DNA from: Candidatus Poribacteria bacterium
GTDB lineage: Bacteria; Poribacteria; WGA-4E; WGA-3G
DNA: 64,000 nt
NCBI GenBank assembly: GCA_958295945.1
Contig: OY282386.1
Span: 2,431,864 to 2,495,863, forward strand
Reading direction: 5' to 3'
Part shown: piece after piece, positions 5,184 to 29,576 of the stretch
How positions within the stretch are numbered: position 1 is the first letter of the stretch
Layout: the number at the start of each line of letters is the position of its first letter
Program-made: the position numbers and the translations under genes
Notes under the pieces: model-generated
Told to the model about the DNA's origin: nothing
Databases searched by the model: none
What the model saw: the letters and a program-made list of their open reading frames with translations, nothing else

Positions 5184-7367
5184 ATGATGAGACAGAAAAC
5201 AAATGAAGAAGTACAGCAAATTGGAGAAAATCTTTTACAGAAGTCAGTTGTCCGTATTATGTGGGAAAAAACTGGCAAGAAAAAGGATGATGATAACATT
5301 ATACCTCGTGGAAGTGGATTCTTTGTCGGTCAGGACTTAGTTGCTACAAACGTTCATTGCATTGTGGATGGAAAATCTGTGTTCGCAGAACTTGTTAGCA
5401 AAAATACGAGATTTTCTGTTGATGGTGTTGTGGCGTATGATGTTGAAAATGATCTTGCAATATTAAAAGTCAATGGTAATGCTGAACCTATATCACTTGG
5501 AAACAGCGATAGTGTTCAAGTCGGAGATGTTGTTTGTGCTATAGGTTTCCCGGGTGGAAAAGAAGGAATCATTACTGAAGGCATTATTCATGAGATCAGA
5601 GAGAGCGACAAACGCTTACAAATCAATCAGTATTTAAAACCTGGATATAGCGGTGGACCGGTAATAAACAGAGTCGGTGAGGTAATTGGTGTTACAGCTA
5701 TGGTATCCATTGGACTTGCATCTTATGTCGGTGGAGGAACATCATTCAATAGTCAGGCAATTCCTGCAAATAAACTTCATGATATGCTTTCAGGAGGTGT
5801 AGAAACAGAACCACTGCAGAAATGGAACAACAATCCGCATATCCAAGGATATGCTAAAGGTATAGAAGGACTGACAAAACTGAGACAAGGAAAACACAAC
5901 GAGGCACTTGAATGCATAAATGCTGCACTTGAACTCAATGCAGATTTAGTGGAATTATACGCAAATAGAGCAGGACTAAAGGTTTTGACAGGTGAACCAG
6001 AAGATGCTATTAAGGACTGTAATACTGCAATAGAACTCAACCCAGCCTGTATAGAGGCATACCTCAACCGAGGTGGTGCTAACTTAATTTTAGAACAATA
6101 CGATGACGCAATTGCTGACTGTAATATTGCAATTAAACTAAATCCTAATATAGTTCAATCTTATATATGCAGAGCAAATGCAAAGTCCGAAATGGGCAAA
6201 CAGGAAGAAGCACTTGAAGACTTTGATACTGTGCTAAATTTCAATCCAGATTCCGAGGAAATCTATCTTTCCCGAGCAAGTTTGAGATATGAACATAAAG
6301 ATTATGCTGGAGCAATAGAAGATTTTGACAAGTTGATTTCTCTAAATCCTGATTTCGGCGCGTTTTTCCAAGTTTACGCAAGTCGGGGGCTTGCAAAATA
6401 CTATCACAAAGACTATGAAGGAGCAATTGAAGACTATGATATTGTCATAGAATCCAGTCCAAAAGATGCAGGGGCATTCTATAATCGGGGTATGGCAAAA
6501 TATAAAATAGGTAGTTCTCATGCAAACAAGAAGAAGAAAAAAGCATCGAGAAAATACTATCATGACGCAATTGATGACTTTAATCAGGCAATCAACATAG
6601 ATCCGAAAAATTCCTATTTCTATTATGATCGTGGGCTTACCAAACGACAACTCAGTGAATTCGAAGAATCGCTTAAAGACTTGGATACATCCATCAAACT
6701 TAACTCTAAACACTGTTGTTCATACTTCAATCGTGGACTTGTTAAACGAAATCTTGGATCATTGAAAATAAAAAAAGGGGATATATTCGGTGGTAGAAAA
6801 TTCATTCAAGAGGCAATTGATGACTATTCACAAGGCATAAAATTAAAACATAATCAATCTACCTCATATCACAACCGTGGATATGCAAATTATCATCTCG
6901 GCAAATCTTATGCTGATCAAAAAAGAATGAATAAGGCACGACTTCATTATCAAGATGCTATTGACGATTACACAGAAGCAATCAAACATCAACCAAAATA
7001 CTCGTTAGCGTATGAACATAGAACTTTGACGAACTATCTTTTGGGAAAGTGTGAAGAGGATAGTGGAAATTCAGATGAAGCTGCCAAACTTTTTCATGCT
7101 ACAATAGCCGACTGTGACGAGTATATTCGTCAGAGATCAGGTAAACTAAATGCCAACATTATCCACAAACGTGGTGCTGCAAATGCTGCCTTGGGTGAAT
7201 ATGAACAGGCGGTCAAAGATTTCAATCATGCGATTCAGACTAAACCAAAACACGCATTATCCTATTATGATCGTGGTAATGTAAAGCATGCACTTGGAGA
7301 ATATGAAGAAGCAAAAGCAGACATTGCAAGAGCAATAGAATTAGACCCTGATATTGATAAACATTGA
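5184..7367 (+). CDS. Trypsin-like serine protease (HtrA-type domain) fused to a long TPR array
   Basis: A 727-aa protein. Residues 15-205 are a DegP-like trypsin fold with the full triad visible: His58 in ATNVHCI, Asp90 in DVENDLAIL, and Ser156 in KPGYSGGPV. There is no PDZ domain. Residues about 217-724 are a run of roughly 13 tetratricopeptide units (A-X-Y-X-N-R-G and DAI-DF/DYN patterns), two or three carrying Lys-rich insertions. No signal peptide or TM segment is evident, so it looks cytoplasmic, unlike classical DegP. The TPRs probably select partners or substrates. ATG 5184 is followed by a second ATG; AAGGA precedes both. It starts 43 nt after the sulfotransferase. Confidence 0.9.
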   Translation: MMRQKTNEEVQQIGENLLQKSVVRIMWEKTGKKKDDDNIIPRGSGFFVGQDLVATNVHCIVDGKSVFAELVSKNTRFSVDGVVAYDVENDLAILKVNGNAEPISLGNSDSVQVGDVVCAIGFPGGKEGIITEGIIHEIRESDKRLQINQYLKPGYSGGPVINRVGEVIGVTAMVSIGLASYVGGGTSFNSQAIPANKLHDMLSGGVETEPLQKWNNNPHIQGYAKGIEGLTKLRQGKHNEALECINAALELNADLVELYANRAGLKVLTGEPEDAIKDCNTAIELNPACIEAYLNRGGANLILEQYDDAIADCNIAIKLNPNIVQSYICRANAKSEMGKQEEALEDFDTVLNFNPDSEEIYLSRASLRYEHKDYAGAIEDFDKLISLNPDFGAFFQVYASRGLAKYYHKDYEGAIEDYDIVIESSPKDAGAFYNRGMAKYKIGSSHANKKKKKASRKYYHDAIDDFNQAINIDPKNSYFYYDRGLTKRQLSEFEESLKDLDTSIKLNSKHCCSYFNRGLVKRNLGSLKIKKGDIFGGRKFIQEAIDDYSQGIKLKHNQSTSYHNRGYANYHLGKSYADQKRMNKARLHYQDAIDDYTEAIKHQPKYSLAYEHRTLTNYLLGKCEEDSGNSDEAAKLFHATIADCDEYIRQRSGKLNANIIHKRGAANAALGEYEQAVKDFNHAIQTKPKHALSYYDRGNVKHALGEYEEAKADIARAIELDPDIDKH

Positions 7368-7656: not shown

Positions 7657-7686
7657 TTGACAAACACATCTGAAATCTGTTAATAT
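7657..7686 (+). promoter_or_regulatory. Promoter of the DUF4252-Omp85 operon
   Basis: TTGACA (7657-7662), 18-bp spacer, TAATAT (7681-7686), about 110 nt before the ATG at 7798. The TGCAAC motif seen upstream of the three sigma genes is not present, so the operon looks sigma-70 driven. Nothing else is evident in 7520-7797. Confidence 0.6.
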
Positions 7687-7797: not shown

Positions 7798-10122
7798 ATG
7801 AGATATTACATTTTCATGTTTTCTCTTTTGCTATGTGGTATTGTATCTACACATGCCCAAACCAGATTAGGAAAAATACCATTAGATTGCCCTGATGTTG
7901 CTCCACCAACTTTTGAGTTTAGCTTAACTCAGGAACTGATAGCACTTATGTCCTCTGCCGAAGTTTTTAACTCGGTTGAGCATATATATATCCACACCTA
8001 TGATAAGAATGATGAAGTTTTTGACAAACTGAGAACCTATTATGAAAACAAATTCTTGAAAAATAGTTGGGATGAATTTACAGAGGATGTAAACTACAGA
8101 ATGTATTATCTTGTTAATACTGATGATAAGGTTGTAGGTATCTTTGTTATCGTCAGAACCAAGGTGACAGTATATCTGCTCAATGTCGTTGGAGAAATAC
8201 CACAACAACAGGTTGGGACACTATTGGCAAATTTAAACCAATTGGGAATCTGGATACCAGAGTTAAGATCGCTTGGACAACAAATAGAAACAAAAAAACC
8301 GCAAACAGAGTCAATTGTATGGTCTGCTGACTCTGCTGATGATACAGATTTAATCTCTGATTCGACAACGATACTCCGAATTTTCAATGATTCCACTAAA
8401 TCGCTATCAAAGTTTGCAGGCACAATGCAAGAAACACGTCTTGGGGATTGGACTTACAATTCCCATCCAATTTCAAGAATAGAAATTAAATCACACACAA
8501 GAAGTCTAGGAGACTCTCAGAAACAGAGAATTGATGAAGTAAAGGATATTCTGTTTGGCGGGAATATACATCAAGATGGACCGGTAGACTTTGGCATTCT
8601 GCTGAACAGATTATTAAATTCAGATGCATCCGTTTATATACATGAAATCACCGTGGATACAGACGAAAAGCGGATTCAATTATTTTTGGAGGAGACTCAA
8701 GACGATGATCATATCAATCTCTCACAACAGTTCCGCACGGGAGAAGATGATCCTATACATGAAATACAACTATACGGTAATCTGGAATTTGATATGAAGA
8801 GACTCAAGTCAGTTCTTGATGAGGGTCCATCAGAAATTGACTATTTTATGAAAACTCTGCCTGAAGCATTAACTCTGCCTGAAACATTTCCAGAAATTGA
8901 TACTGCAACCATAGAAACAGTAGAATTTGGTCAACGTAGAATTGCAAAAATCACAGTCCTGCTGGAAAAACCAATTGTATTTAATCCCTATGCAAATGCT
9001 ATGCCAAGGGTTGGATTTAATCGTGTATCAGGATGGGAACTGGGTGCACGTGTTGAAACAGGATTTCGCTCGCAGCCAGCAAAGGATGTAATACCAATTG
9101 ACTATGATTGGAATAGAGAAGTGCCGCTCTCAAGAGACAATCCAAAATTATTCGCACAATTTGGTTATGGATTTGGAAATAAACAACGTTATTACTCAAT
9201 AGGTGCAAACCAAATCTGGGGAAAAAGAGAAAATTGGAGCATAGGATTAAGCGCACGCTACCAACGTACAATCTCTACTATATCATCGGACATTTATGCG
9301 GGTTATGTAGAAAGAGGATTGTTTTTCTTAAGATTAATTGGTGTACCAGATCACCAAGACTATTATCTAAAAAAAGGCACAGAGGTATCATTTCATTGGC
9401 AACCAACTTGGTCAAATCAAGTAAGGATTTCTCTTGCTTCAGAAAAACATGAAAACCTACATAAAACCACAGATTGGCATATCCTAAACTGGCGTTCTGC
9501 TTCAAAAGTGCGTGACAATCTTGATGTAACACCTGCAAACATCCGAAGTATCACTTTCAAATCTGACTTCAACAGTAGAAGAAACTACCTCGGATGGCAT
9601 AACACGTTTCTTATAGAACACTCTAATCCAGTTTTTGGTTCAGATTATGATTGGACACGTGCTCAAACACATATTCGTTATTCATACCCATTCGGACGAC
9701 ACCAAATTCGGAGCAGGTTTGTGTTAAGTTCGGTCTTTGGAAAAAAGACAGAGGATCAGGCAAGTAATATACTCTTGCCAATTCAACGGCAATTTATCAT
9801 CGGAGGAATTGGGACACTCAACGGATATCCAATCAACTCATTTGTAGGTGATGAAGGATATCTCTTCAATGTAGAACTTAATTTAGGTTTACCTGTTATC
9901 AATCAACTTGATTTTTTAAAGGATATCCATGCTGTGCTATTCGTTGATATTGGACAAGTTTGGAACGAATATAGCGAAAAATGGGATTTTGATCCAAAAG
10001 GCAGTGTTGGTATAGGATTACAGGTTTCCTCTGATGTGGATATTTTCAGATTTAATGTTGCACAAGCATTTGATTCAGATCAAGACATTCAATATAATCT
10101 AATGTTCTTTTATAGTTATTAG
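7798..10122 (+). CDS. DUF4252-POTRA-Omp85 outer-membrane protein (chimera 1)
   Basis: A 774-aa exported protein with a signal peptide (1-20). Residues about 25-165 are a DUF4252-like alpha/beta domain: IYIHTYDKNDE, WDEFTED, VGIFVIVR and LLNVVGEIPQQQVGTLL. A variable linker is followed by POTRA-like units, clearest at IHEIQLYGNLEFDMKRLKSVL to RIAKITVLLEKP (about 320-398). Residues 400-774 form an Omp85/surface-antigen barrel, with FVDIGQVW and a C-terminal aromatic tail (FFYSY). The loop-6 VRGF/Y motif reads TLNGYP: the conserved Arg is Asn. Omp85 barrels insert or transport proteins at the outer membrane. DUF4252 in front of such a barrel is unusual. First gene of a four-gene operon. Confidence 0.85.
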   Translation: MRYYIFMFSLLLCGIVSTHAQTRLGKIPLDCPDVAPPTFEFSLTQELIALMSSAEVFNSVEHIYIHTYDKNDEVFDKLRTYYENKFLKNSWDEFTEDVNYRMYYLVNTDDKVVGIFVIVRTKVTVYLLNVVGEIPQQQVGTLLANLNQLGIWIPELRSLGQQIETKKPQTESIVWSADSADDTDLISDSTTILRIFNDSTKSLSKFAGTMQETRLGDWTYNSHPISRIEIKSHTRSLGDSQKQRIDEVKDILFGGNIHQDGPVDFGILLNRLLNSDASVYIHEITVDTDEKRIQLFLEETQDDDHINLSQQFRTGEDDPIHEIQLYGNLEFDMKRLKSVLDEGPSEIDYFMKTLPEALTLPETFPEIDTATIETVEFGQRRIAKITVLLEKPIVFNPYANAMPRVGFNRVSGWELGARVETGFRSQPAKDVIPIDYDWNREVPLSRDNPKLFAQFGYGFGNKQRYYSIGANQIWGKRENWSIGLSARYQRTISTISSDIYAGYVERGLFFLRLIGVPDHQDYYLKKGTEVSFHWQPTWSNQVRISLASEKHENLHKTTDWHILNWRSASKVRDNLDVTPANIRSITFKSDFNSRRNYLGWHNTFLIEHSNPVFGSDYDWTRAQTHIRYSYPFGRHQIRSRFVLSSVFGKKTEDQASNILLPIQRQFIIGGIGTLNGYPINSFVGDEGYLFNVELNLGLPVINQLDFLKDIHAVLFVDIGQVWNEYSEKWDFDPKGSVGIGLQVSSDVDIFRFNVAQAFDSDQDIQYNLMFFYSY

Positions 10123-10176
10123 TAGTCTACATATAAATAGATGACGAGATACATCAAATAGAGAGGTAGCAAAAGC

Positions 10177-11274
10177 ATGAAAAGTAACAGAAATAAAATA
10201 TCACTATTGATCTCCTTATGTATTCATTTCATTTTGGTCCTATCTATATCACCATTTATCGTAAAACATCTCAATGAATTTGAAAATCCTCTATCACTTG
10301 AGTTCTTTAAGGTCGAATCACCTGAACGTATAAAACGACGAACAAAGCTTGAACATAAGTCTGTCAAACCAAAGATTAGAACAGATAGCGGATCACCATC
10401 TATTACTCGTGCAGCACCGAAATATGCCCCAGAAATGAATCCACCAAAAGCCCTAATCTACGATGACCTTGCACCGGAAATTGTGACATTTGCTGATATT
10501 CCACAAACGAGTTCAGCTACTTTACCCAATGCAAGTTTTGGAAAAGGGACAGATGCGGCGGGTCCAGTCGTAATTCCTGAATTTCGTGGAGCAGGAGGAA
10601 CACAACGCGGTGTAGGTCGGGGTGGATCAGGTTCAGGAAAAGGAGGCGGCATGGGGAAGAGATTAGCAGGAATCCCTAACACCGATGATCTGCCTTCAAT
10701 TGGATACACTGAAGGAGATATGGGACTTGGCATTTTTAACACCGATGTAATGCCTGGACACGGTTTAGTTGGTAAAGTCTACATATCTGAAACTGCTTTA
10801 CATCGCTTGCCAAATTTCAAGAGAATGACACCTGTTTATTCCTTTACCACCGCGAATTTAGATGTTTCGGCAAGACACTATACAGAAGGTTTTCCTACAC
10901 CCAAAAAACAGGAAGTACTTGAGAACTTTGCTATCCACTTCCACGGAAAACTTGCAGTGGATACTCCAGGTATATATAGGTTTGAAATGCTCTCTGATGA
11001 CGGTTCTAAGTTATACATCAACGAAAAATTGGTTGTAGATAATGATGGAACTCACGGTCCTTCCAGCAGGATATCCTCCATTAGACTGAATGCAGGATTT
11101 CATCCAGTTGAGATACACTATTTCCAAGGCCCGCGCTTCCAAATTGCACTACAATGGTTTTATAAACCACCTAACCGTCCGAGACAAATTGTACCAGCAG
11201 AAGTTATCTTCCACCCGGGTAAAACTGAGGTCCCAGACGCATTGAAATCATTAAGAGAAAAAATGAAAAAATAG
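10177..11274 (+). CDS. TonB-type membrane anchor with Gly-rich linker and C-terminal PA14 domain
   Basis: A 365-aa protein. Residues 8-27 are a single N-terminal TM helix with the TonB-like Ser-xxx-His pattern (S13, H17 in SLCIH). In TonB this pattern contacts ExbB/ExbD. A Lys/Pro-rich stretch and a Gly-rich linker (about 137-167) follow. The C-terminal part (about 192-350) is a PA14 beta-barrel: FAIHFHGKLAVDTPGIYRFEM, SDDGSKLYINEKLVVDN, and FQIALQWFY. PA14 usually binds glycans or acts as a surface module. No TonB C-terminal domain is present. It lies 54 nt after chimera 1 and 10 nt before chimera 2, which points to a shared envelope task. Confidence 0.8.
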   Translation: MKSNRNKISLLISLCIHFILVLSISPFIVKHLNEFENPLSLEFFKVESPERIKRRTKLEHKSVKPKIRTDSGSPSITRAAPKYAPEMNPPKALIYDDLAPEIVTFADIPQTSSATLPNASFGKGTDAAGPVVIPEFRGAGGTQRGVGRGGSGSGKGGGMGKRLAGIPNTDDLPSIGYTEGDMGLGIFNTDVMPGHGLVGKVYISETALHRLPNFKRMTPVYSFTTANLDVSARHYTEGFPTPKKQEVLENFAIHFHGKLAVDTPGIYRFEMLSDDGSKLYINEKLVVDNDGTHGPSSRISSIRLNAGFHPVEIHYFQGPRFQIALQWFYKPPNRPRQIVPAEVIFHPGKTEVPDALKSLREKMKK

Positions 11275-11284
11275 TCGTATTATC

Positions 11285-13612
11285 ATGGTGAACAAAATGA
11301 AATACAATATAAATATACTCTTTATGCTATTAATATGCACTGCTGTGAGTGCACAAATCAATAGTGGTAAAGTTGCATTCAAATGGAAAAATTCACCTTC
11401 ACCACAATTTGCATTTGACTTAGACGGTGCCACTATTACTGAAGTGATGGATAATCCAAATCCTGACATCACCTTAATATTTAGCTATGTGGATAATTTA
11501 TATTTAAGAAGTTATCATAGAAAAGGTCTTAATTATCAGCAAATGCTCAACTACTATAAGAATAGACTAATAGCACGAGGATGGAGTACATATCAGAGAA
11601 ATGAGAAATTGTATCTTTACACATTCAGACAAAATGAAGCTGTTGTTGGAATCCTCATTATTGTAAGTAGTGGAGACGAAGTGTATCTAATAAATATAAC
11701 TGGAACAATCCCACCTCAAAAAGTAGTAGACATCTTAAGAAACCTTAACCAACTCGGAATTGATATATCAGAATTAGAAGACTTCAGTCAGGTTCCCAAT
11801 TCTACTATCGCTCCGCCAACAACAGAGATATTGAAGAAAGAGAAAAGCTCTTCACTGGAAACATCTCTTGATCCACCGATTTCATCTTGGTATTACGAGG
11901 GATTACCGATTGATGATTTCATTATTCAGAACACACAGAGAAATGAGGAAACCAATATATTCAAGTTTCTTGAAAAAGGTTCAGGTGATCTGGAAAATGT
12001 GTTACCGATGATAATAAAATCGTTCCCTTCTAACCGTACTGTATCTGTTAAGATCACCGAGGAAAATGGGGTGAATATAGCAATTCTTACGATGAAGAAT
12101 CGTAAGCGTTCAAAATCAGTGTCAGTATTAAGATCAATCACGATCAATCGTAACGGAACGCATCGGCGAATAAAATCAACCACTTCCAATCTTGAAATTG
12201 ATGAGTTATTTCCACAAGGTGCAACACGTTTCAAAGCAGCAAATGCCCCAATTCATGAGTTAAGGATTATTGGAAATCAGAAAATATCAGAACAAGATAT
12301 TCGCAGACATCTAAATAACGGATCGGAGAATATAGAACAAGCCTTAAAGACTTTGTTCAAAGTAATGCCCTATTTTTCAGAAATAAAGCTGCGGGTTAAA
12401 GAAGAGAACTACAGTCGTGTTGCAACAATCACCTTTGAAGAGAAACCTTTGTCTTCGGATTTATATCTTGGGTTTCGACCTCCTCTATTTCTTGGGTTCA
12501 ACCGTGTTATCGACTGGGAATTCGGCACAGGATTTCAGATTGGGAAACCTACAGAAATTGGACCATTATGGCAGTGGAATGTGTCGCATTTATTAAACAC
12601 ACGCACATATAACTTATTTGGTAGAATTAGTACTACATTAGGAAATCCTAAATACCATTATCGATTCGGTGGTAGAGTAAACTGGGGTGAACCATATTCA
12701 TGGAAATTGGGACTGGCTGGACAAGTTCTCCGTCAAACCGATGTGGTAGCTCCTGAACTATTTTCTAACTATAGAGATGGATTCTTCACTTTACAACACA
12801 TATTAGGATATCCTGGCTTAGCAAATTACTATTTGAGAAAAGGATTTGAAGTCCAATTAGAATGGAGTCCAAGATTACCAGAACATACCTTCAACTTGTC
12901 AATGATCGCTGAATCACACGAAAGTCTTCAAAAAAGTACTGATTGGAATATGTCGCAATGGGTATCAAAACATATTGAAGCCAGAGAAAATCCTGCTATC
13001 ACATCAGGACGGATACACAGCCTTACCTTGAATTACAGTTTCAACACGCAGCAAGAACATCTTGGTTGGGATAGTACAATGTCTGTTGAACATAGTAACA
13101 CTGCTTTCGGTTCAGATTTTGATTTTACTCGCCTCCAAATGCATCTTCGATATGCTTTTCCTTTAGATAACAACCGCGTCAGAACTCGGTTACTATTCGG
13201 TTTCTCTGATAACCCATTACCCGAACAGAGACAGTTTGCAATTAGTGGTTTAGGTGGTTTGAGAGGATACCCTCTCTTTGAATCAGCAAATGAAACTTCC
13301 ACAACACCTGGGGTAAGTTCCTCAGAATATGCTTTTATGGGTGACGGTGGATTCTTGCTGAACATTGAATATCATCACCGTTTACAAAACTTGATTAATC
13401 GGGATTTTTTCAAGAATTTCTTTCTTGTCCTCTTTCTTGATGAAGGACAAGTATGGAATATGTCAGATTCATCGTTCTCCTTTGACCCCAAAGCAGATGT
13501 AGGTATCGGTTTACAGTTTCATGATGCAGGCTTTTTTAGGTTTAATATTGCTAAAACTCTGGATTCATGGCAAGGTTACCAAACATCTTTTGGATGGAGT
13601 TATAGTTTTTAG
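11285..13612 (+). CDS. DUF4252-POTRA-Omp85 outer-membrane protein (chimera 2)
   Basis: A 775-aa paralogue of chimera 1 with a signal peptide (about 1-23). The DUF4252-like domain (about 30-175) shows LYLRSYHRKG, RGWSTYQRNE, VVGILIIVSSGDEVYLINI and GTIPPQKVVDILRNL. A POTRA unit spans about 318-396 (IHELRIIGNQKISEQDIRRHL to RVATITFEEKP). The Omp85 barrel follows, with the intact loop-6 motif GLRGYPLFE, FLDEGQVW and terminal GWSYSF. ATG 11285 and ATG 11297 are both possible; neither has a good Shine-Dalgarno, so coupling to the gene 10 nt upstream is likely. The barrel is most similar in layout to chimera 1, including conserved EHSN and RYAFPL strands. Confidence 0.87.
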   Translation: MVNKMKYNINILFMLLICTAVSAQINSGKVAFKWKNSPSPQFAFDLDGATITEVMDNPNPDITLIFSYVDNLYLRSYHRKGLNYQQMLNYYKNRLIARGWSTYQRNEKLYLYTFRQNEAVVGILIIVSSGDEVYLINITGTIPPQKVVDILRNLNQLGIDISELEDFSQVPNSTIAPPTTEILKKEKSSSLETSLDPPISSWYYEGLPIDDFIIQNTQRNEETNIFKFLEKGSGDLENVLPMIIKSFPSNRTVSVKITEENGVNIAILTMKNRKRSKSVSVLRSITINRNGTHRRIKSTTSNLEIDELFPQGATRFKAANAPIHELRIIGNQKISEQDIRRHLNNGSENIEQALKTLFKVMPYFSEIKLRVKEENYSRVATITFEEKPLSSDLYLGFRPPLFLGFNRVIDWEFGTGFQIGKPTEIGPLWQWNVSHLLNTRTYNLFGRISTTLGNPKYHYRFGGRVNWGEPYSWKLGLAGQVLRQTDVVAPELFSNYRDGFFTLQHILGYPGLANYYLRKGFEVQLEWSPRLPEHTFNLSMIAESHESLQKSTDWNMSQWVSKHIEARENPAITSGRIHSLTLNYSFNTQQEHLGWDSTMSVEHSNTAFGSDFDFTRLQMHLRYAFPLDNNRVRTRLLFGFSDNPLPEQRQFAISGLGGLRGYPLFESANETSTTPGVSSSEYAFMGDGGFLLNIEYHHRLQNLINRDFFKNFFLVLFLDEGQVWNMSDSSFSFDPKADVGIGLQFHDAGFFRFNIAKTLDSWQGYQTSFGWSYSF

Positions 13613-14352
13613 TGATAAAAATGCGAAATACGATCGTTTTATCTATCCTCTTTACAATAGTCTTTCCGAATGTAATTGTAATTTCAGATGCTAATCCTGA
13701 ATACGATTTCACCTTCGTACGCCTAAAATACAGTGGTAGGCTCACACAGTTAAGTAATTGGGAAGTAGATTATCCTGCCTCTGATCGCAACTTTATCTAT
13801 CAACTTAGAAAGCAGACAAATCTTAGTGTAGCACCTGACAGCATTCATATCTCAGTCGGTTCAAAAGATCTGTTTGATTATCCTTTTGCTTATGTTCTTG
13901 AAGTAGGTAGCATGCGGCTAAGTAATACAGAAGCCGCAAATCTTCGTGAATATCTATTACGCGGTGGTTTTCTCTTTGTTGATGATTTTCACGGTGGGAT
14001 AGAGTGGAAATGGTTCTATAAAGAATTCAAAAAGATTTTTCCGAACCGTGAACCTGTTGAAATACCAGTTACACACGGAATTTTCCGCTGCTTCTACAAG
14101 ATTGAAAAACTGATTCAAATACCCGGTTTACGCGCACTATACAGTGGAAGAACGTATGAAAGGTATGACGGTCATCCAGCAAAATATCTTGGTGTGACTG
14201 ATGATAAAGGGAGACTTATGATGCTGATTTGCTTCAATTCTGATTTGGGTGATGCTTGGGAACACGCTGCAATGGCTTCATATCCTCGAGAATATTCAAA
14301 TATCGCACTGAAAATAGGCATCAATTCAGTCATATATACACTGACACATTAA
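13612..14352 (+). CDS. Exported DUF4159 protein
   Basis: About 246 aa with a signal peptide and one DUF4159 domain. The typical segments are FTFVRLKYSG, the strand YVLEVGSMRLSNTEAANLREYLLRGGFLFVDDFHG (residues about 100-135), and the end DLGDAWEHA. DUF4159 has a ThuA/glutamine-amidotransferase-like fold and is usually exported, with unknown activity. The GTG at 13612 overlaps the stop of chimera 2 by one base; an ATG at 13621 is the alternative. It closes the operon and meets holA tail to tail with a 4-nt overlap. Confidence 0.85.
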   Translation: MIKMRNTIVLSILFTIVFPNVIVISDANPEYDFTFVRLKYSGRLTQLSNWEVDYPASDRNFIYQLRKQTNLSVAPDSIHISVGSKDLFDYPFAYVLEVGSMRLSNTEAANLREYLLRGGFLFVDDFHGGIEWKWFYKEFKKIFPNREPVEIPVTHGIFRCFYKIEKLIQIPGLRALYSGRTYERYDGHPAKYLGVTDDKGRLMMLICFNSDLGDAWEHAAMASYPREYSNIALKIGINSVIYTLTH

Positions 14353-21902: not shown

Positions 21903-21966
21903 TGGGCAAATGTCCTAAAGTTATGCAAATATATTAATAAAATAACTTTGAAAGGACAATTGCCCA
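21903..21966 (+). promoter_or_regulatory. Hairpin masking the transposase ribosome binding site
   Basis: TGGGCAAATGTCCT (21903-21916) pairs with AGGACAATTGCCCA (21953-21966) at 13 of 14 positions, with a 36-nt loop. The 3' arm contains the Shine-Dalgarno AAAGGA region and reaches the A of the transposase ATG. Such structures in IS leaders block translation of read-through mRNA from outside promoters. The pairing is seen directly; the function is inferred. Confidence 0.6.
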
Positions 21967-23309
21967 TGCAAGTAATTATAGCACTTTTTGCAGTTTTTGC
22001 ACCACATATATCTGCAACGACAGGATGCCAATTATCATGTGTTGTCCTCGCAGTGCTTGCGATGACAGGACGGGTCACCATGTTAAATATCTCTCGTTGG
22101 ACATCAAAAGGCGGTAGCTACCGCACAATTCAACGCTTTTTCAACACGGTGCTGCCTTGGCCGACCCTCTTCTGGGTGTTTTTTCGCACACACCTGCTTG
22201 ATCGTGAAAGCGAATATATCATCGTAGGAGACGAAACAATCAAGCCCAAAACGGGTTCAAAGACTTTTGGTTTAGACCGTTTCTTTTCTTCAACACATGG
22301 CAAAGCGATCCCAAGTTTGTCATTCTTAGCCGTGTCCTTAGTGAGTGTCAATGAACGGCGTTCTTATCCAATGGCTATAGAACAAATCGTCCGAGATGAC
22401 ACATCATCAACTTCAGCTGCCAAACAAGATGCTACCCCAAAGGACCCCTTGAAACGCCCGCGTGGACACCCAAAAGGGAGCAAAAACCGAGATAAAACCG
22501 ATGTCGTGATTATCGGTGTTTTGAAACAACTTCAAATTATGATCAAAACGCTACTGTCAAAAGTCGGCGGTGCGATCCAACTCCGGTATTTAGTGCTTGA
22601 TGGATATTTTGGACATAATAACGGAGGACAAATGACAAGACAATGTGATCTCCATCTCATCTCAAAACTTCGCTCGGATGCCGCACTGTTTTGGCAACCG
22701 ACAGACGAAAAAGAAGGCCCCGGACGCCCACGGCTCTACGGGGAAAGGTTCAACCCACAACAGATTGATCCGAAATATCGCATCTCTATCCAAACCGATG
22801 GAAATATCAGAACCGACATCTATCAAGGACACCTGCGAAACCAAAAGTTCCCAGAACTTCTAAACGTCGTTTGCCTCCTCAAGACAAACTTGAAAACAAA
22901 AAAGCAATCACACATCCTATTGTTTAGTTCTGATTTAGCATTAGACGCAGAAAAGATGATTGACTATTATTCCCTTCGTTTCCAAATCGAGTTCAACTTC
23001 CGGGATGCGAAACAATATTGGGGATTGCAAGATGCTATGAATGTCAACAAAGAACCCGTGAACACTGCAGCAAATCTATCAATGTTTATGATCCATGTCA
23101 GTGCGAAACTCATGGAAAAGGACAGATGTCAGAATCCCGAATATAGTGTATTAGATCTCAAATCGCGCTACCGAGGGCTGAAATATGTGCATGAAACATT
23201 AAAAATGCTTCCGCAAAAACCTGAACCAATTGTTATTCAGCAAATCACTGAACATCTGGGTTCAATCGGTGCTATTCATCACACACAACCCAATCTTAAC
23301 CCAGGATAA
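21966..23309 (+). CDS. IS4-family DDE transposase
   Basis: 447 aa from ATG 21966, with AAAGGA 9 nt upstream; an upstream TTG at 21948 is a weaker start. The catalytic residues are visible: first Asp in IIVGDETIKP, second Asp in YLVLDGYFG, and Glu in the IS4 YREK signature Y-x2-R-x3-E-x6-K (YSLRFQIEFNFRDAK). A Lys/Arg-rich linker with RPRGHPKGSKNRDK lies between the first two acids. The full length and intact motifs suggest it is active. Confidence 0.9.
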   Translation: MQVIIALFAVFAPHISATTGCQLSCVVLAVLAMTGRVTMLNISRWTSKGGSYRTIQRFFNTVLPWPTLFWVFFRTHLLDRESEYIIVGDETIKPKTGSKTFGLDRFFSSTHGKAIPSLSFLAVSLVSVNERRSYPMAIEQIVRDDTSSTSAAKQDATPKDPLKRPRGHPKGSKNRDKTDVVIIGVLKQLQIMIKTLLSKVGGAIQLRYLVLDGYFGHNNGGQMTRQCDLHLISKLRSDAALFWQPTDEKEGPGRPRLYGERFNPQQIDPKYRISIQTDGNIRTDIYQGHLRNQKFPELLNVVCLLKTNLKTKKQSHILLFSSDLALDAEKMIDYYSLRFQIEFNFRDAKQYWGLQDAMNVNKEPVNTAANLSMFMIHVSAKLMEKDRCQNPEYSVLDLKSRYRGLKYVHETLKMLPQKPEPIVIQQITEHLGSIGAIHHTQPNLNPG

Positions 23310-23380: not shown

Positions 23381-23409
23381 TGCAACCGATTTGCATCTCG
23401 ATTGTAGTA
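23381..23409 (+). promoter_or_regulatory. Likely autoregulated promoter of ECF sigma 1
   Basis: TGCAAC (23381-23386), 17-bp spacer, GTAGTA (23404-23409), with the inverted repeat TGCAA/TTGCA inside (23381-23395). The same layout precedes ECF sigma 2 (28179-28207) and the ECF-TPR gene (31831-31859). ECF sigma factors commonly drive their own promoter. Upstream, 23325-23357 is the remnant of a family-1 MITE. Confidence 0.6.
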
Positions 23410-23438: not shown

Positions 23439-23972
23439 ATGACTGAAGACGAATTCCTTGAACTGGTTCGCAAACATCAAGATGGAATCTATCGGCATGC
23501 ACTCTATCTACTCAAAAACACTGAAGACGCAAAAGATATGACACAAGAAACCTTTATCAAAGCATGGCAACATCGGAAAAAATTAAGACAAAAAACTGTT
23601 CACGCATGGTTGCTGAAATGCACACGAAATCTCTGTTTTAACCTAATAAAACGCAGAAAGTTTCAGGTCCATTTATCAGAAGAAGATGATGACGGTGATA
23701 CGTTTGGCATGCTACTAAAGACACAAGAAAACAAGTCAAGTCCATCCCCGGAGGAAATTACGATCATGCATGAAACCAAGCAGTTAGTACATCGCGCAAT
23801 TGGAGAACTGCCGACTTCTATGAGGTCCATAGTCATAATGCGTGAATTAGAGGAGATGAGTTACAAAGAGATCGCAGCGATAGTAAAACAACCTGAAAAC
23901 AGTGTGAAATCAACCGTATTTCGTGCTCGTAAAAGATTACGTGAGATATTGAGCGGCCTCATGGAGACATAA
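23439..23972 (+). CDS. ECF RNA polymerase sigma factor 1
   Basis: 177 aa from ATG 23439, with GGAGGT 6 nt upstream; the longer frame from 23391 overlaps the promoter. Sigma region 2 shows HALYLLKNTEDAKDMTQETFIKAW (about 20-43), and region 4 shows YKEIAAIVKQPENSVKSTVFRARKRLREIL (about 143-172). It is followed after 3 nt by a zinc anti-sigma factor, then by two DUF4252 proteins, which it probably controls. It is close in sequence to ECF sigma 2 at 28237-28773 (same DAKDMxQETFIKAW and PENSVKS segments). Confidence 0.92.
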   Translation: MTEDEFLELVRKHQDGIYRHALYLLKNTEDAKDMTQETFIKAWQHRKKLRQKTVHAWLLKCTRNLCFNLIKRRKFQVHLSEEDDDGDTFGMLLKTQENKSSPSPEEITIMHETKQLVHRAIGELPTSMRSIVIMRELEEMSYKEIAAIVKQPENSVKSTVFRARKRLREILSGLMET

Positions 23973-23975
23973 CCG

Positions 23976-24647
23976 ATGACACAAAAAGCATCACACGGCA
24001 GAACATGTAAAGACTTCCAAACACTATTGGAAGAATATATCACAGGTGAATTGGATGACCAGACAGAATCTGCTATTACATCGCATCTCACCACATGTGA
24101 CAAATGTCAACACGAACTGCATTTAGCACAAACGATTGATACGGTTTTAGATGACTTGCCAAAGCCTACATCACCTCCTGAAATTCTAAGCGAGGTCTCA
24201 GCTTATGTTCGCGCAAATCCTAAAAGCGAAAGTTGGTTACATAGATTCTTTCAATTTTCTAACGTTTTGGAATACTTACGTTCACCATTACTGCGTGTAA
24301 GTGCAATGGTTGCTCTTATCTGCCTTATGTTATTCGGTGTTCACCAATATCAAAGGTATGTTGAAGTAGAACAAGCAAAAAGCGACTTCCAATATGCAAT
24401 GAGTAAGATGCAATCTGCAGTTCGTAAAACAAGCCTTGCAGTAAACGATAGTTTTACATCACTCAACGTTGACGATGCACCACGTCGCGCGCTAAAACCG
24501 ACAAAGGATATCTCACCTGCAATACAACAGAGTCTGGGTGTTCTCAACATCTTAACTGGTTCAGAAAATCACCAAGAGTCAAATACAATTAAGTCAAATA
24601 ATCCTATACAACAGAACAATCAAAATCCAGGAGGAAATACACAATGA
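23976..24647 (+). CDS. Zinc-binding anti-sigma factor (zf-HC2 type)
   Basis: A 223-aa single-pass membrane protein. The N-terminal anti-sigma domain has C11 and the H37-xxx-C41-xx-C44 motif (HLTTCDKC). A TM helix lies at about 107-124, and the periplasmic part (about 125-223) is helical, then Asn/Gln-rich. It should bind ECF sigma 1 in the cytoplasm and release it on an envelope signal. Its stop overlaps the next ATG (ATGA), and an AGGAGG inside its last codons serves the DUF4252 gene, so output is tightly coupled. Confidence 0.9.
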   Translation: MTQKASHGRTCKDFQTLLEEYITGELDDQTESAITSHLTTCDKCQHELHLAQTIDTVLDDLPKPTSPPEILSEVSAYVRANPKSESWLHRFFQFSNVLEYLRSPLLRVSAMVALICLMLFGVHQYQRYVEVEQAKSDFQYAMSKMQSAVRKTSLAVNDSFTSLNVDDAPRRALKPTKDISPAIQQSLGVLNILTGSENHQESNTIKSNNPIQQNNQNPGGNTQ

Positions 24648-25186
24648 AACGATTTACCCTTGTTGTCCTATTAGTCGCTTTATGCTTTCTTGGCAACGGT
24701 ATAGCAGAAACCGAGGCAATTCGTGGCAAAATAGATATGAACATGTCTGATGCCGCAACCCCAACGATTGAAGTTAACTTAGACCAATCCTTTTTCAATC
24801 TCTTTATCAAATTCACAGTAAACCAACCAGCTTTGTCAGAGTATGCGGAGATGATAGAAGGTGTTTTCATTCGCAGTTATGATAATGAGTCCGGTGACTT
24901 AACTAAAATGAAAAGTCGTTACCAAGAAATTCTCAAAACGGAGGACTGGGAGCACATTGTTAAGGTCAAGGACGAACTCCGCGTCTGCCTACTTTACGCT
25001 GAGACACTAGGTGTTGTCAACGGCATTTTCGTATCCTTTACTGATAAACAGAATACTACTTTCGTGAATGTATGTGGTGAGATTGATTTTCAAAAACTTG
25101 GCATACTGTTTGGAAAAATTTTGGAATCCAATCCCGAGTTCTTAAAGGACATCAAGATTGATGGAAAGTTTGGAATCAAAAAGTGA
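24644..25186 (+). CDS. Stand-alone exported DUF4252 protein
   Basis: 180 aa with a signal peptide (1-21) and one DUF4252-like domain: VFIRSYDNE, EDWEHIVKVKDELRVCLLY, VVNGIFVSFTD and FVNVCGEIDFQKLGIL. It is the single-domain version of the module at the N-terminus of the three Omp85 chimeras. DUF4252 genes are known beside sigma/anti-sigma pairs in other phyla, mostly Bacteroidetes, which fits. It may be a periplasmic signal or ligand-binding protein feeding the anti-sigma factor. It is translationally coupled to the anti-sigma gene. Confidence 0.88.
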   Translation: MKRFTLVVLLVALCFLGNGIAETEAIRGKIDMNMSDAATPTIEVNLDQSFFNLFIKFTVNQPALSEYAEMIEGVFIRSYDNESGDLTKMKSRYQEILKTEDWEHIVKVKDELRVCLLYAETLGVVNGIFVSFTDKQNTTFVNVCGEIDFQKLGILFGKILESNPEFLKDIKIDGKFGIKK

Positions 25187-25251: not shown

Positions 25252-27744
25252 ATGAAACTGCAAAAAACCCTAACACTGTTATTTACGGTGTTCTGTTTAG
25301 CATTATGGATTGTGCCTATCCATCAAGTAATAGCACAAGAAAAACAGCCAAAACAACAGACAAAAAAAGGACTCATCCCGTTTGACTATCTGGATGAAAT
25401 GGAAGCACATGTTGAAGTTAATCTAACGGACAGACTTATTAATTTAGTGACTAAATCTGTCAGATCCAAACCAGAGGTAGCAGGACTAATTGGGATGATT
25501 GACGGCATCTATCTTCGCACCTACAATGAATATGGTGAATCCGAATTAGGAATGATTAAGTATTACCAGAATATACTGAAGGAAGATAAGTGGGAAGTCC
25601 TCGTAAGAGTCAAGGAAGAGCACAAAACCAAAGACAAAGATGGTATGGTTGAAATCAGATTGTTGTTTGATGAAGATGTGGCTTACGGGATCTTTGTAAT
25701 TATCGCATCTCATGATCCTGATGAGGTAACCCTTATAAACATTGTCGGTGAAATCGCTCCAGATAAGATTACGCAACTGCTTGGCAACTTAAGCAAGTTC
25801 GGTATGGCAGATATTGATCTTGAAGACACTCTGAAGTCAGGTGTTGAACCAAAGGCAAAAAGAGGAACCGTTCAAAAAGAAATTCTTGCTGTCAAAGCCG
25901 AAAAACCACCAAAAATTGATGGTAAACTTGATGATAATTGCTGGAAAACCGCCCCCCAAGCAGATGGGTTCACACACATAGAAACAGAAAAGTCTGTCAA
26001 AGACCAAACAATAGTCAAGCTGCTTTATACCGACAAAGCGATCTACGTTGCTTGGCACATCTACGATGCTGAACCAGAAAAAATCAAAAGACACCGAACT
26101 AAAGATCATTTACGATTTGTGAACGAGGACATGGTCTGCTTCAGCATTGACCCATTTCAAACCCATAAACCAACACACAGGACTCTGTTTATGGTAAATC
26201 CGCTAGGGAAGAAATATGTGCAATTTGCATCAGATCCAAAGAGATCTCTAGTTGTAAACCAGATGAAGGCAGACCAATTTAATGTCGCTGCGAATACCGT
26301 TGATGATGGATGGGTCGTAGAGATGGAAATTCCTTGGAAGGTGTTAGACTATCCAGATACTTCCGAACCGATTCAGATGGGGATTAACTTCAACAGAAGG
26401 CAGCAGCGGACAGGTGAGAATTCTTGGTGGTCAAATATAGGAGTTGAAAAACAATACAAAAACGATGGTAATTGGATTCGGGTTATACCACCTCAAAAGG
26501 CTTCCCGCTTGCAGGGAAGGTTAGAGGTAATTGAGAAAGGTAAATACAATGCATCAGGCGTTTTCACTCGTGGTAAAGACGGTTCTCCTACAAACAGGGA
26601 TTTCTTTCGTATTACGAATTCCAGTGGGTTAAATCCTATTGATGGTCTAAGGCTCGGTGGTGGATTTGAACTCGGAACACGGTGGAATCCTGATCCATAC
26701 TTTTTTGACAGGTCCGGTGAAACAATCCACCGAAATATAGAAGCAAGTAATACACCAATCGGTATAGGCACTGGATTATCACCACAACCCTTCGTATATG
26801 GCACAATGAGTTATGCACTTCGGACAGAAACCCCCAATTACCGCCTTGGTGGTGGCATTAAATTCGGTAAGGAGTCAAGTCTTACTTATGGCTTCCAAAT
26901 TCATAGATTAACATCTGCCAGAGACAGAGATCTCTTGTTGGCTGGTAGCGAACAGTTTTTGAGAGCGTTCTTTGATGCTGATTTTCAAGACTATTATACA
27001 AGACAAGGTGGCGTGATGGGATTGCAATGGCAGCATGCATCGTTAAAGCATACGCTTGGTCTATCACTGCTATTGGAAGAACATGAAAGTATATGGGAAG
27101 ACAGCACCTCATACTTCAGAATTGGAACATCAAGATACCACTTAGGCACAGATTTAAGACCTAATTCTCCTATATATGATGGCAGAATGCATAGCATCAC
27201 CTTAAAATACGATTTTGATACTCGCGAAAACATTGGCGTAAGATACGACTTGGGTAACCAAAGGAATACAAGTGAGTGGTATAACACTTTTCTTGTTGAG
27301 CATTCAAACTCTGCAATGGGTTCTACGTTTGATTTCACTCGCTTTGTGGTACACCTTCGCAACTATCACCCAATTGGAAATGATCGTATTGATACGCGTT
27401 TAAAGGTTGGACTTGCATCTACTTCGTATACGTTACCTTACCAACGTCAATTTGTGCTTGGTGGCACAGGAACCTTACGTGGATACTCTCTTTATGAATT
27501 TGTGGGTAACTACGGATTCTTATTCAATATGGAGTATGTGCATACCTTAGCACACGGAATTTATGTCGTGCCTTTTGTTGATGTAGGACAAGCATGGATG
27601 GATTTGGATGAAATCAAAGACATTTACCCGAAGGTTAACCTCGGTGTCGGTTTCCAGCTCGGTATTTTCAGATTGAATTTCGCAAGGGCACTTGAGAGGA
27701 ATAGAGAATATCAAGCCAATTTCAAATGGTCTCGCACGTTTTAA
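25252..27744 (+). CDS. DUF4252-CBM9-Omp85 outer-membrane protein (chimera 3)
   Basis: An 830-aa exported protein with a signal peptide (about 1-28). A DUF4252-like domain (about 50-195) contains IYLRTYNEYGE, DKWEVLVRVKEE and INIVGEIAPDKITQLLGNL. A CBM9-like domain (about 214-410) opens with PPKIDGKLDDNCWKTAPQADG and has NEDMVCFSIDPF. Instead of a clear POTRA, the CBM9 unit leads straight into an Omp85 barrel (about 450-830) with TLRGYSLYEF, FVDVGQAW and terminal FKWSRTF. AAGGAG precedes the ATG. It is the last gene of the ECF1 operon and ends before a MITE and a terminator. Confidence 0.88.
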   Translation: MKLQKTLTLLFTVFCLALWIVPIHQVIAQEKQPKQQTKKGLIPFDYLDEMEAHVEVNLTDRLINLVTKSVRSKPEVAGLIGMIDGIYLRTYNEYGESELGMIKYYQNILKEDKWEVLVRVKEEHKTKDKDGMVEIRLLFDEDVAYGIFVIIASHDPDEVTLINIVGEIAPDKITQLLGNLSKFGMADIDLEDTLKSGVEPKAKRGTVQKEILAVKAEKPPKIDGKLDDNCWKTAPQADGFTHIETEKSVKDQTIVKLLYTDKAIYVAWHIYDAEPEKIKRHRTKDHLRFVNEDMVCFSIDPFQTHKPTHRTLFMVNPLGKKYVQFASDPKRSLVVNQMKADQFNVAANTVDDGWVVEMEIPWKVLDYPDTSEPIQMGINFNRRQQRTGENSWWSNIGVEKQYKNDGNWIRVIPPQKASRLQGRLEVIEKGKYNASGVFTRGKDGSPTNRDFFRITNSSGLNPIDGLRLGGGFELGTRWNPDPYFFDRSGETIHRNIEASNTPIGIGTGLSPQPFVYGTMSYALRTETPNYRLGGGIKFGKESSLTYGFQIHRLTSARDRDLLLAGSEQFLRAFFDADFQDYYTRQGGVMGLQWQHASLKHTLGLSLLLEEHESIWEDSTSYFRIGTSRYHLGTDLRPNSPIYDGRMHSITLKYDFDTRENIGVRYDLGNQRNTSEWYNTFLVEHSNSAMGSTFDFTRFVVHLRNYHPIGNDRIDTRLKVGLASTSYTLPYQRQFVLGGTGTLRGYSLYEFVGNYGFLFNMEYVHTLAHGIYVVPFVDVGQAWMDLDEIKDIYPKVNLGVGFQLGIFRLNFARALERNREYQANFKWSRTF

Positions 27745-28178: not shown

Positions 28179-28207
28179 TGCAACAATTTTGCATCTCGTT
28201 TGTAGTA
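28179..28207 (+). promoter_or_regulatory. Likely autoregulated promoter of ECF sigma 2
   Basis: TGCAAC (28179-28184), 17-bp spacer, GTAGTA (28202-28207). The inverted repeat ATGCAA/TTGCAT lies within. Spacing and -10-like box are identical to those before ECF sigma 1. Confidence 0.6.
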
Positions 28208-28236: not shown

Positions 28237-28773
28237 ATGACAGAAGACAAATTCCTTGAACTCATCCGAAAACATCAAGATAAAGTATATCGTCATGCTT
28301 TTTATCTACTCAAAAACAGTGAAGATGCAAAAGACATGGCACAAGAAACCTTTATTAAAGCATGGGAACATCGCACAACATTAAGAATGGAAACAGCCCA
28401 CTCATGGATGCTGAAATGTGTCCAAAATCTCTGTTTCAACCAACTCAAACGTCGTAAGTTTCAGATGCATTTAGATGAGGAAGAGGGTGAAACACTTGAG
28501 ATGCTACTGCATTCTTATTCCTACCAGACAAATCCAACCCCGGATGAAATTGCTATCAAACTGGAACTTAAGCAGTTAGTGCGACAAGCAGTTGAAGAAT
28601 TACCACCTGCCATGCGATCAACAATCATCATGCGAGAATTTGAGGAAATGAGTTACAAGCAAATCGCAGAGGAATTGAAACGTCCTGAAAACAGTGTTAA
28701 ATCAATGTTATTCCGTGCTCGTGAACAATTGCGCGAGATATTAAATCGATTAATGGAGGAGACAGAAGAATGA
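28237..28773 (+). CDS. ECF RNA polymerase sigma factor 2
   Basis: 178 aa from ATG 28237 with CGGAG upstream; the frame from 28189 would cross the promoter. Region 2 is HAFYLLKNSEDAKDMAQETFIKAW and region 4 is YKQIAEELKRPENSVKSMLFRAREQLREIL. It is a close paralogue of ECF sigma 1. No anti-sigma gene follows: its stop overlaps the ATG of a DUF5694 gene (ATGA). Regulation must come from elsewhere, from the DUF5694 proteins, or from transcription alone. Confidence 0.92.
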   Translation: MTEDKFLELIRKHQDKVYRHAFYLLKNSEDAKDMAQETFIKAWEHRTTLRMETAHSWMLKCVQNLCFNQLKRRKFQMHLDEEEGETLEMLLHSYSYQTNPTPDEIAIKLELKQLVRQAVEELPPAMRSTIIMREFEEMSYKQIAEELKRPENSVKSMLFRAREQLREILNRLMEETEE

Positions 28774-29576
28774 AACCGACAATCATGATACTCGGCAGCG
28801 GACATTTAGCAAATCCCGGTAAGGACGCATTCAATATAAGAATGGATGATGTGCTTGCCCCTAAACGGCAAAGTGAAATCAAACTATTGGTATCACAACT
28901 CAAAGAATTTCGCCCTACCAAAGTTGCACTTCAAGCAGATCAAAGGTTTGCACCTGAAATTAATGTTAACTATCAAGATTATGTTGATGGCACGTATGAT
29001 CTCAAACGTTGGGAACATGATCAGATAGGCTATCGTTTGGCAAAGGAGATGGAACATCCAAAAGTATATTGTGTAGATTTTTCTCCTGAGCATGACCCAT
29101 TCTTCCCAAAAGACATTGACTCAAATTTGATAGATATAGACAAATTCGCCATGGAAAATAACCAAGAACACCTTCTTCCTAAAATGGAGGATTTTGATAT
29201 TCCCGAAGGAAAAACGCACCACGAAGAGGATGGAAGAGTCTGGATTGAACCTAAGAAGTATGAATCAATCATAGACATGTATATACGGTATAATCAACCT
29301 GAAGGAAGGCGCGCTGATCATCAGTCATACTTGCGGATGTCCCAAGTCGGCATAGGAAATCAATACCCTGGAGTGAATTGGGTTGGGAATCACTGGTATC
29401 CACGAAATCTTAAAGTCTTTGTCAACCTGACGCGCATCACAGAATCAGCTGAGGATAGGATACTTGTGATAATCGGTGCTGGACTTGTCTTTCTACTTCA
29501 GCAGTTTCTTGAGGACTCAGGAGATTATATCATTGAAAGTCCCTTAAAATATATAAAATCGGAGGATATAAGTTGA
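28770..29576 (+). CDS. DUF5694 protein A (degenerate C-terminal site)
   Basis: 268 aa, cytoplasmic by sequence. The N-terminal motif MILGSGHLANPG (His12) and DDVLAPKRQSEI are hallmarks of DUF5694, a family I place near the TraB/EreA-type hydrolase folds on motif logic only. Paralogue B has a C-terminal GGGHVYLVQHF; here it reads GAGLVFLLQQF, so both His residues are lost. It may therefore be a non-catalytic partner. Translationally coupled to ECF sigma 2 upstream and to paralogue B downstream. Confidence 0.8.
   Translation: MKPTIMILGSGHLANPGKDAFNIRMDDVLAPKRQSEIKLLVSQLKEFRPTKVALQADQRFAPEINVNYQDYVDGTYDLKRWEHDQIGYRLAKEMEHPKVYCVDFSPEHDPFFPKDIDSNLIDIDKFAMENNQEHLLPKMEDFDIPEGKTHHEEDGRVWIEPKKYESIIDMYIRYNQPEGRRADHQSYLRMSQVGIGNQYPGVNWVGNHWYPRNLKVFVNLTRITESAEDRILVIIGAGLVFLLQQFLEDSGDYIIESPLKYIKSEDIS

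Follow-up and report, generated by a model that had tools for sequence, protein, structure and literature searches.

What does DUF4252, a small exported domain of unknown function usually encoded next to stress-response sigma factors, do at the N-terminus of an outer-membrane barrel? The question is raised by a 64,000-nucleotide stretch of DNA, hereafter the window, from a Candidatus Poribacteria genome that consists of a single contig of 5.3 Mb. Poribacteria are sponge-dwelling bacteria. An initial annotation of the window, made from the sequence alone, had described two paralogues in one operon and a third gene farther downstream, each joining a DUF4252-like domain to an Omp85 barrel, together with a stand-alone form of the domain.

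DUF4252 is joined to an Omp85 barrel in three proteins

All of the open reading frames concerned are present:

7798-10122, + strand: protein A, 774 aa; signal peptide, DUF4252 (~21-171), two POTRA-like domains (by homology to B) and an Omp85 barrel with NGY at the L6 tip
11285-13612, + strand: protein B, 775 aa; signal peptide, DUF4252 (~25-165), POTRA-like domain (202-272), hairpin (279-300) and POTRA-like domain (317-386)
11285-13612, + strand: barrel of protein B, 16-strand Omp85 (residues 389-775), with R660-G-Y at L6 and D719 on the barrel wall
24644-25186, + strand: stand-alone exported DUF4252 protein, directly after the anti-sigma gene
25252-27744, + strand: protein C, 830 aa; DUF4252 (49-176), CBM9-like domain (222-384) and Omp85 barrel (~440-830) with RGY at L6

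The Pfam Omp85 family (PF01103) matched A, B and C with E-values of 2.5e-14, 5.8e-11 and 2.2e-9, respectively, all above the gathering score that we applied as the threshold, which disposes of the objection that the barrels might have no Omp85 match; the family was also found in 49 of the 55 A/B members. Pfam DUF4252 (PF14060) was above its cut-off in the stand-alone protein (E 1e-12) and in C (3e-8), stayed under it in B (1.2e-3) and gave no match in A in the same scan. A phylum profile, built solely from 18 stand-alone poribacterial DUF4252 proteins, matched the N-termini of A (9.1e-25), B (2.8e-22) and C (5.2e-47) as well as all 88 A/B orthologues, and none of 600 shuffled sequences scored below 0.01. 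That the N-termini are ordinary POTRA domains is ruled out by this assignment together with the two separate POTRA-like domains that follow in A and B. Pfam POTRA itself was detected at E 0.01 or better in six of the 55 members. DUF5686 was considered as the parent family of A and B and dropped, its matches being weak and confined to 5/55 members. As read from their sequences, A, B and C are exported proteins with a DUF4252 periplasmic arm and an Omp85 barrel.

The DUF4252-POTRA-Omp85 order named in the initial annotation holds for A and B. In C, a CBM9-like domain (E 9e-9) takes the place of the POTRAs, only ~55 residues separate the CBM9 match from the barrel and the domain scan detected no POTRA; the architecture of C therefore differs from that of A and B.

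The proposed structure prediction was carried out for B. The AlphaFold2 model (55 sequences; mean pLDDT 75) places DUF4252, a POTRA-like domain (~202-272), a beta hairpin, a second POTRA-like domain (~317-386) and ~16 barrel strands in this order, with both POTRA-like domains predicted as beta-alpha-alpha-beta-beta, and with a relative placement of the domains that is unreliable at a pTM of 0.53. The top chains in a Foldseek search with this model were TamA and then BamA (E ~1e-17 to 1e-16). VIA-align gave Z-scores of ~18-21 for the B barrel against SAM50, TamA and BamA, and several of these alignments include the POTRAs, with residues 207-775 of B aligned to TamA/BamA. The model of the stand-alone DUF4252 protein (pLDDT 76, pTM 0.76) listed no firm relative in fold searches: its best match, DcrB (E 6e-3; Z 6.7 over 96 residues), is under the trust level of the tool, the Eag chaperones SciW and EagT6 are likewise weak (Z 6.7-5.4 together with DcrB), and Eag chaperones, PA94, PsbP and Mog1 stand lower in the list. 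A DcrB/Mog1/PsbP-like fold for DUF4252 can therefore be taken as a lead only.

The two barrels of the operon differ at the lid lock

In Omp85 proteins, the (V/I)RG(Y/F) motif of loop L6 is salt-bridged to (F/G)xDxG on the barrel and so forms a lid lock (PMC4490367). In B, Arg or Lys occupies the L6 position and Asp the barrel position in 35 of 35 aligned rows each. In A, the barrel Asp is retained, and Asn stands at the L6 Arg position in all 20 aligned rows and in 34 of 34 when more loci are considered, a set that overlaps the 20. The initial annotation had reported RGY and DxGQxW-type motifs for all three proteins; this is correct for B and for C (RGY at L6 and DVGQAW), which both carry the lid-lock motifs, and incorrect for A with its NGY.

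In family f3, the first gene has Asn at L6 and the second has Ser. A single clade of the A copies of families f1 and f3 was rejected (AU test, p 9e-5), so the Asn either arose convergently or was kept via gene conversion. The replacement in A, set against Arg/Lys in B, leads us to infer that labour may be divided between the two barrels.

The barrels are encoded with a TonB/TolA-type protein

The span covered by the initial annotation (7798-13612) also contains a PA14 gene (10177-11274), which proved informative:

7657-7686, + strand: sigma-70-like promoter upstream of A, TTGACA-N18-TAATAT with TG before the -10 element; weak, with scan matches at chance level
10177-11274, + strand: PA14 protein, TonB/TolA-type and predicted to sit in the inner membrane; TM helix 11-29 with S13-x3-H17, linker and PA14 domain 242-327
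13612-14352, + strand: exported DUF4159 protein (E 7.9e-52), last gene of the operon

The order A-PA14-B-DUF4159 is conserved across the family, with PA14 or DUF4159 sometimes present in extra copies, and since it is syntenic in many genomes the fusions are not assembly accidents. Directly upstream of A, here and in a few close genomes (L066, L067), lies a gene (5184-7367) for a protein with an HtrA-like protease domain and many TPR repeats and without an obvious signal peptide.

Ser13 and His17 of the PA14 protein are invariant in 42/42 orthologues that cover the N-terminal helix, and they are the sole fully invariant positions among the first 24 residues. The corresponding Ser-x3-His pair of TonB and TolA contacts ExbB and TolQ (PMC12215075). 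The Leu and second Ser of the full SHLS motif, which are described as less conserved for Ton (PMC12215075), are not conserved in the PA14 protein, where position 24 is mostly I/V/L and position 28 mostly L/F. A TonB C-terminal domain was not found in this protein; the PA14 head stands there instead. We know of no case in which a PA14 head interacts with POTRA or DUF4252. Heads are exchangeable: one relative (L116) joins the same N-terminal helix to a DUF4159 head, and another (L075) encodes a protein with a TonB-type helix and DUF4159 3′ of a DUF4252-Omp85 gene in an ECF operon, so the helix and the Omp85 neighbour are what is kept.

ExbD genes were found in 30/30 relatives and in the source genome. 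The PA14 protein is not the only candidate partner of ExbBD in that genome: TonB_C was detected in three other genes, one of them with Ser-x3-His and one with Ala at the Ser position, and 14 plug-domain matches indicate that ordinary TonB-dependent receptors exist.

DUF4252 and the barrels are linked to ECF sigma factors

The stand-alone DUF4252 gene and the gene of protein C lie in an ECF sigma factor operon, and a second ECF sigma gene follows:

23381-23408, + strand: ECF-type promoter 1, TGCAAC-N16-TGTAGT, before the sigma 1 gene
23439-23972, + strand: ECF sigma factor 1; the likely true ATG at 23439 follows GGAGGT, and an upstream TTG start (23391) overlaps with promoter 1
23976-24647, + strand: anti-sigma factor; zf-HC2 by profile, one TM helix and a periplasmic tail as read from the sequence
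28179-28206, + strand: ECF-type promoter 2, an exact copy of TGCAAC-N16-TGTAGT, before the sigma 2 gene
28237-28773, + strand: ECF sigma factor 2; start set as for sigma 1 by analogy; not followed by an anti-sigma gene
28770-29576 and 29573-30388, + strand: two DUF5694 genes, the first by domain scan, the second by sequence similarity

A transposase-like ORF (21948-23309) immediately precedes the sigma 1 operon. DUF5694, here next to sigma 2, is fused to DUF4252 in genus g4 (L089), another pair that occurs both separately and fused. At C1:4904678-4904705 of the source genome (L184), the same promoter also precedes a third ECF sigma gene, which is nearly identical to sigma 1, has no DUF4252 genes downstream in the stretch read and is probably a recent copy.

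Upstream of the ECF sigma genes linked to DUF4252 lies TGCAAC-N16-TGTAGT or a close variant of it; the two exact copies in the window stand before sigma 1 and sigma 2. An alignment-based contig scan yielded 40 A/B loci, all from Candidatus Poribacteria (a single-protein scan yielded none), and these 579 kb contain 11 exact copies at spacing 16 and zero copies at spacings 12-15 and 17-21, compared with a mean of 0.09 and a maximum of 4 for permuted hexamer pairs. One copy precedes the A gene (L135) and ten precede the PA14 gene, all in other poribacterial loci; at one of them (L122) the PA14 start was called too early, and the site precedes the likely true start. The 11 copies include seven distinct spacer sequences and, as several loci share a spacer, do not represent 11 independent events. 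Beyond the 11/40 loci with exact copies, a few further A/B loci carry the motif with one or two mismatches. Genome-wide, exact hexamer pairs at variable spacing number 8 versus 4 in the control and thus stay close to the control level; the motif carries information in context and at its spacing of 16, not alone. In the source genome, it is absent ahead of A, PA14 and B, and as the promoter of the A gene of the window it was rejected, the best match there having four mismatches.

Gene neighbours in relatives point in the same direction. In one deep lineage (L093), an Omp85 gene of 360 residues lies 17 bases before genes for sigma factor, anti-sigma factor and DUF4252; in another (L077), an Omp85 gene and a DUF4252-TPR gene follow an anti-sigma-like fragment; and in L075, sigma factor, anti-sigma factor, DUF4252 genes, DUF4252-Omp85 and the TonB-helix/DUF4159 protein are encoded in a single run. 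DUF4252 and Omp85 are thus separate neighbours in some genomes and fused in others, a classical sign of shared function. The link between DUF4252 and sigma factors has been strengthened by these arrangements at or near ECF operons and by the ECF-type promoter at 11 other loci, and DUF4252 is the recurrent exported component of operons with an ECF sigma factor and a zf-HC2 anti-sigma factor.

Further fusion partners of DUF4252 in relatives are DUF5694, CBM9, DUF4097, PDZ and TPR-PDZ. PDZ is joined to DUF4252 adjoining ECF sigma genes in three of them (L094 7960-9312, L096 137-1855, L097 1045-2733), proteins that recall PDZ-based envelope-stress sensing.

The barrels form a clade apart from BamA and TamA

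A, B and C, unfused relatives and DUF4097-CBM9-POTRA-Omp85 proteins form a barrel clade (support 100/99) apart from the BamA, TamA, BamA-like and WD40 types of the source genome, and the DUF4252-fused barrels group together within the tree at only 81/91. The source genome encodes eight Omp85 proteins in all, including BamA, a TamA-like protein with TamB and other types. The BamA gene lies elsewhere, has five POTRA matches and is preceded by lipoprotein-export-like genes and followed by Skp/LpxD-like ones; the TamB gene adjoins another Omp85 gene, not A, B or C. The BamA equivalog model TIGR03303 gave A 53 bits against a cut-off of 297 and did not list B, and the TamA model NF047950 reached at most 33 bits against 625. 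We therefore rejected A and B as the essential BamA or TamA and, given BamA and TamA/TamB elsewhere in the genome, regard A, B and C as accessory.

Large relatives extend the range of architectures. L156 7409-11101 (-) of the source genome and L083 6640-10266 (-) encode Omp85 proteins of 1,209-1,231 aa with a DUF4097 toastrack, a CBM9-like domain and POTRA, whose barrels belong to the clade of A, B and C. The 979 aa protein of L155 4974-7910 (source genome) joins Peptidase_MA, a WD40-like propeller and an Omp85 barrel, two kinds of module in one architecture.

Discussion

These observations suggest a stress-controlled, perhaps motor-driven outer-membrane machine. Envelope stress would free the ECF sigma factor, which would raise the expression of stand-alone DUF4252 proteins and DUF4252-Omp85 barrels. 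These barrels would serve to assemble or translocate some of the outer-membrane or surface proteins, and their DUF4252 arm would bind clients or a partner from the regulon, as additional POTRAs might otherwise do. B, whose lid lock of L6 Arg and barrel Asp is intact, would act as the working barrel, with A and its L6 Asn as a modified partner. The TonB/TolA-type protein would link ExbB/ExbD of the inner membrane with the arms of the Omp85 proteins, reaching the latter through its PA14 head, and might supply force. The activity of the barrels, the role of DUF4252, the transfer of force and the pairing of A with B are what we infer here, and the parts are not equally probable. We consider it slightly more probable than not that A, B and C make up an accessory Omp85 system that belongs to an ECF regulon and acts in protein assembly or translocation. 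Weighing against it, the ECF motif is missing ahead of A, PA14 and B in the source genome, where a sigma-70-like site is seen instead, and exact copies occur in 11 of the 40 A/B loci only. Coupling to ExbB/ExbD through the TonB-type protein is a tentative proposal, and a heteromer of A and B a slightly more tentative one. Feedback of DUF4252 on the anti-sigma factor is doubtful, and equally doubtful is the complete trans-envelope machine, in which a DUF4252-linked ECF sigma switch, a proton-gradient drive via the TonB-type protein and a PA14/DUF4159 head engaging the DUF4252-POTRA-Omp85 pair would all act together.

Other readings of the same genes have to be weighed against this proposal. A and B could be translocases that resemble those of two-partner secretion or act in surface display and serve a dedicated client, for example of the PA14 or DUF4159 type, with DUF4252 being just a client-binding chaperone that has no tie to signalling. 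Weak ShlB/FhaC matches of A, C and 20/55 A/B members fit this reading, as does the weak likeness of the DUF4252 model to DcrB and to Eag chaperones, which hold transmembrane helices. However, that likeness is below the reliable level of the tool, the best-listed solved barrels for B are SAM50, TamA and BamA and not FhaC, the PA14 protein with its conserved TonB-type membrane helix is no obvious client, and the association of DUF4252 with ECF genes is difficult to account for without regulation, so we consider such dedicated translocases unlikely. The opposite emphasis would make DUF4252 a true sensor arm that tells the anti-sigma factor of barrel occupancy or of a periplasmic ligand, with A, B or C as outer-membrane signal receivers, comparable to FecA-FecR or DegS-RseA. 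The stand-alone DUF4252 gene is immediately 3′ of the anti-sigma gene, other periplasmic modules including PDZ and DUF4097 are fused to DUF4252 beside ECF genes, and the gene of C sits within the ECF operon; but proteins of an ECF operon may equally be outputs, and A and B are encoded ~10 kb from the sigma genes with different promoters in the source genome, which leaves the sensor arm an improbable explanation as well.

The least probable of these readings, to which we give little credence, is that barrels of the A/B/C subfamily handle lipid, glycan or polysaccharide and not protein, with the CBM9-like and PA14 domains binding surface glycans. It draws on the CBM9-like domain in C and in the DUF4097-CBM9-POTRA-Omp85 relatives and on the PA14 head of the tether. 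Against it, A and B match protein-handling Omp85s in their POTRA-like domains and signature motifs, and CBM9-like and PA14 folds have protein-binding or structural roles, too.

Under the preferred reading of an accessory system under ECF control, the fused and separate states give DUF4252 a functional context and connect the domain with outer-membrane assembly or with surface proteins. The prevailing view is that Omp85 proteins need no external energy source for their work (PMC9355242). With two of them encoded next to a TonB-type helix, the operon allows a direct test of whether any Omp85 protein is coupled to the proton gradient. In the open-access literature joining TonB, Omp85, ExbB, POTRA and proton motive force, the only match concerned Myxococcus porins.

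Compared with TamA and BamA, A and B share the POTRA-like arm and the 16-strand Omp85 barrel, and the L6 RG[YF] and barrel DxG motifs recur, but they carry an N-terminal DUF4252 and share their operon with a TonB-type PA14 protein and not with TamB; unlike BamA and TamA of the source genome, the A, B and C barrels fall in the separate clade, and A lacks the L6 Arg. The stand-alone DUF4252 proteins of Bacteroidota ECF operons (PG_0216, PG_0987) have the same domain beside sigma-70-family genes, and no Omp85 fusion appears in the annotations seen for them; sigma and DUF4252 genes of P. gingivalis are listed together as up-regulated in expression data (PMC10101095). The stand-alone protein of the window matches the GFO_1090 model weakly (21 bits versus a cut-off of 150). 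The PA14 protein resembles TonB and TolA in its inner-membrane helix with Ser-x3-His and in the presence of ExbD in the genome, and differs from them in its PA14 head (DUF4159 in relatives), the missing TonB C-terminal domain and its being encoded with Omp85 proteins. An Omp85 barrel with an alternative N-terminal domain is what A, B and C have in common with the patatin, WD40, metallo and noNterm subfamilies of Heinz and Lithgow (PMC4104836), and among the ten Omp85/TpsB subfamilies defined there by N-terminal domain, the main text names no DUF or carbohydrate-binding architectures. The titles and abstracts of open-access papers that mention DUF4252 do not deal with Omp85. The statement of the initial annotation that no description of the fusion is known thus agrees with the main text of that classification and with the open-access literature searched, the genomes surveyed being poribacterial. 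On this basis, DUF4252-Omp85 adds a new architecture to the Omp85 superfamily and does not found a superfamily of its own.
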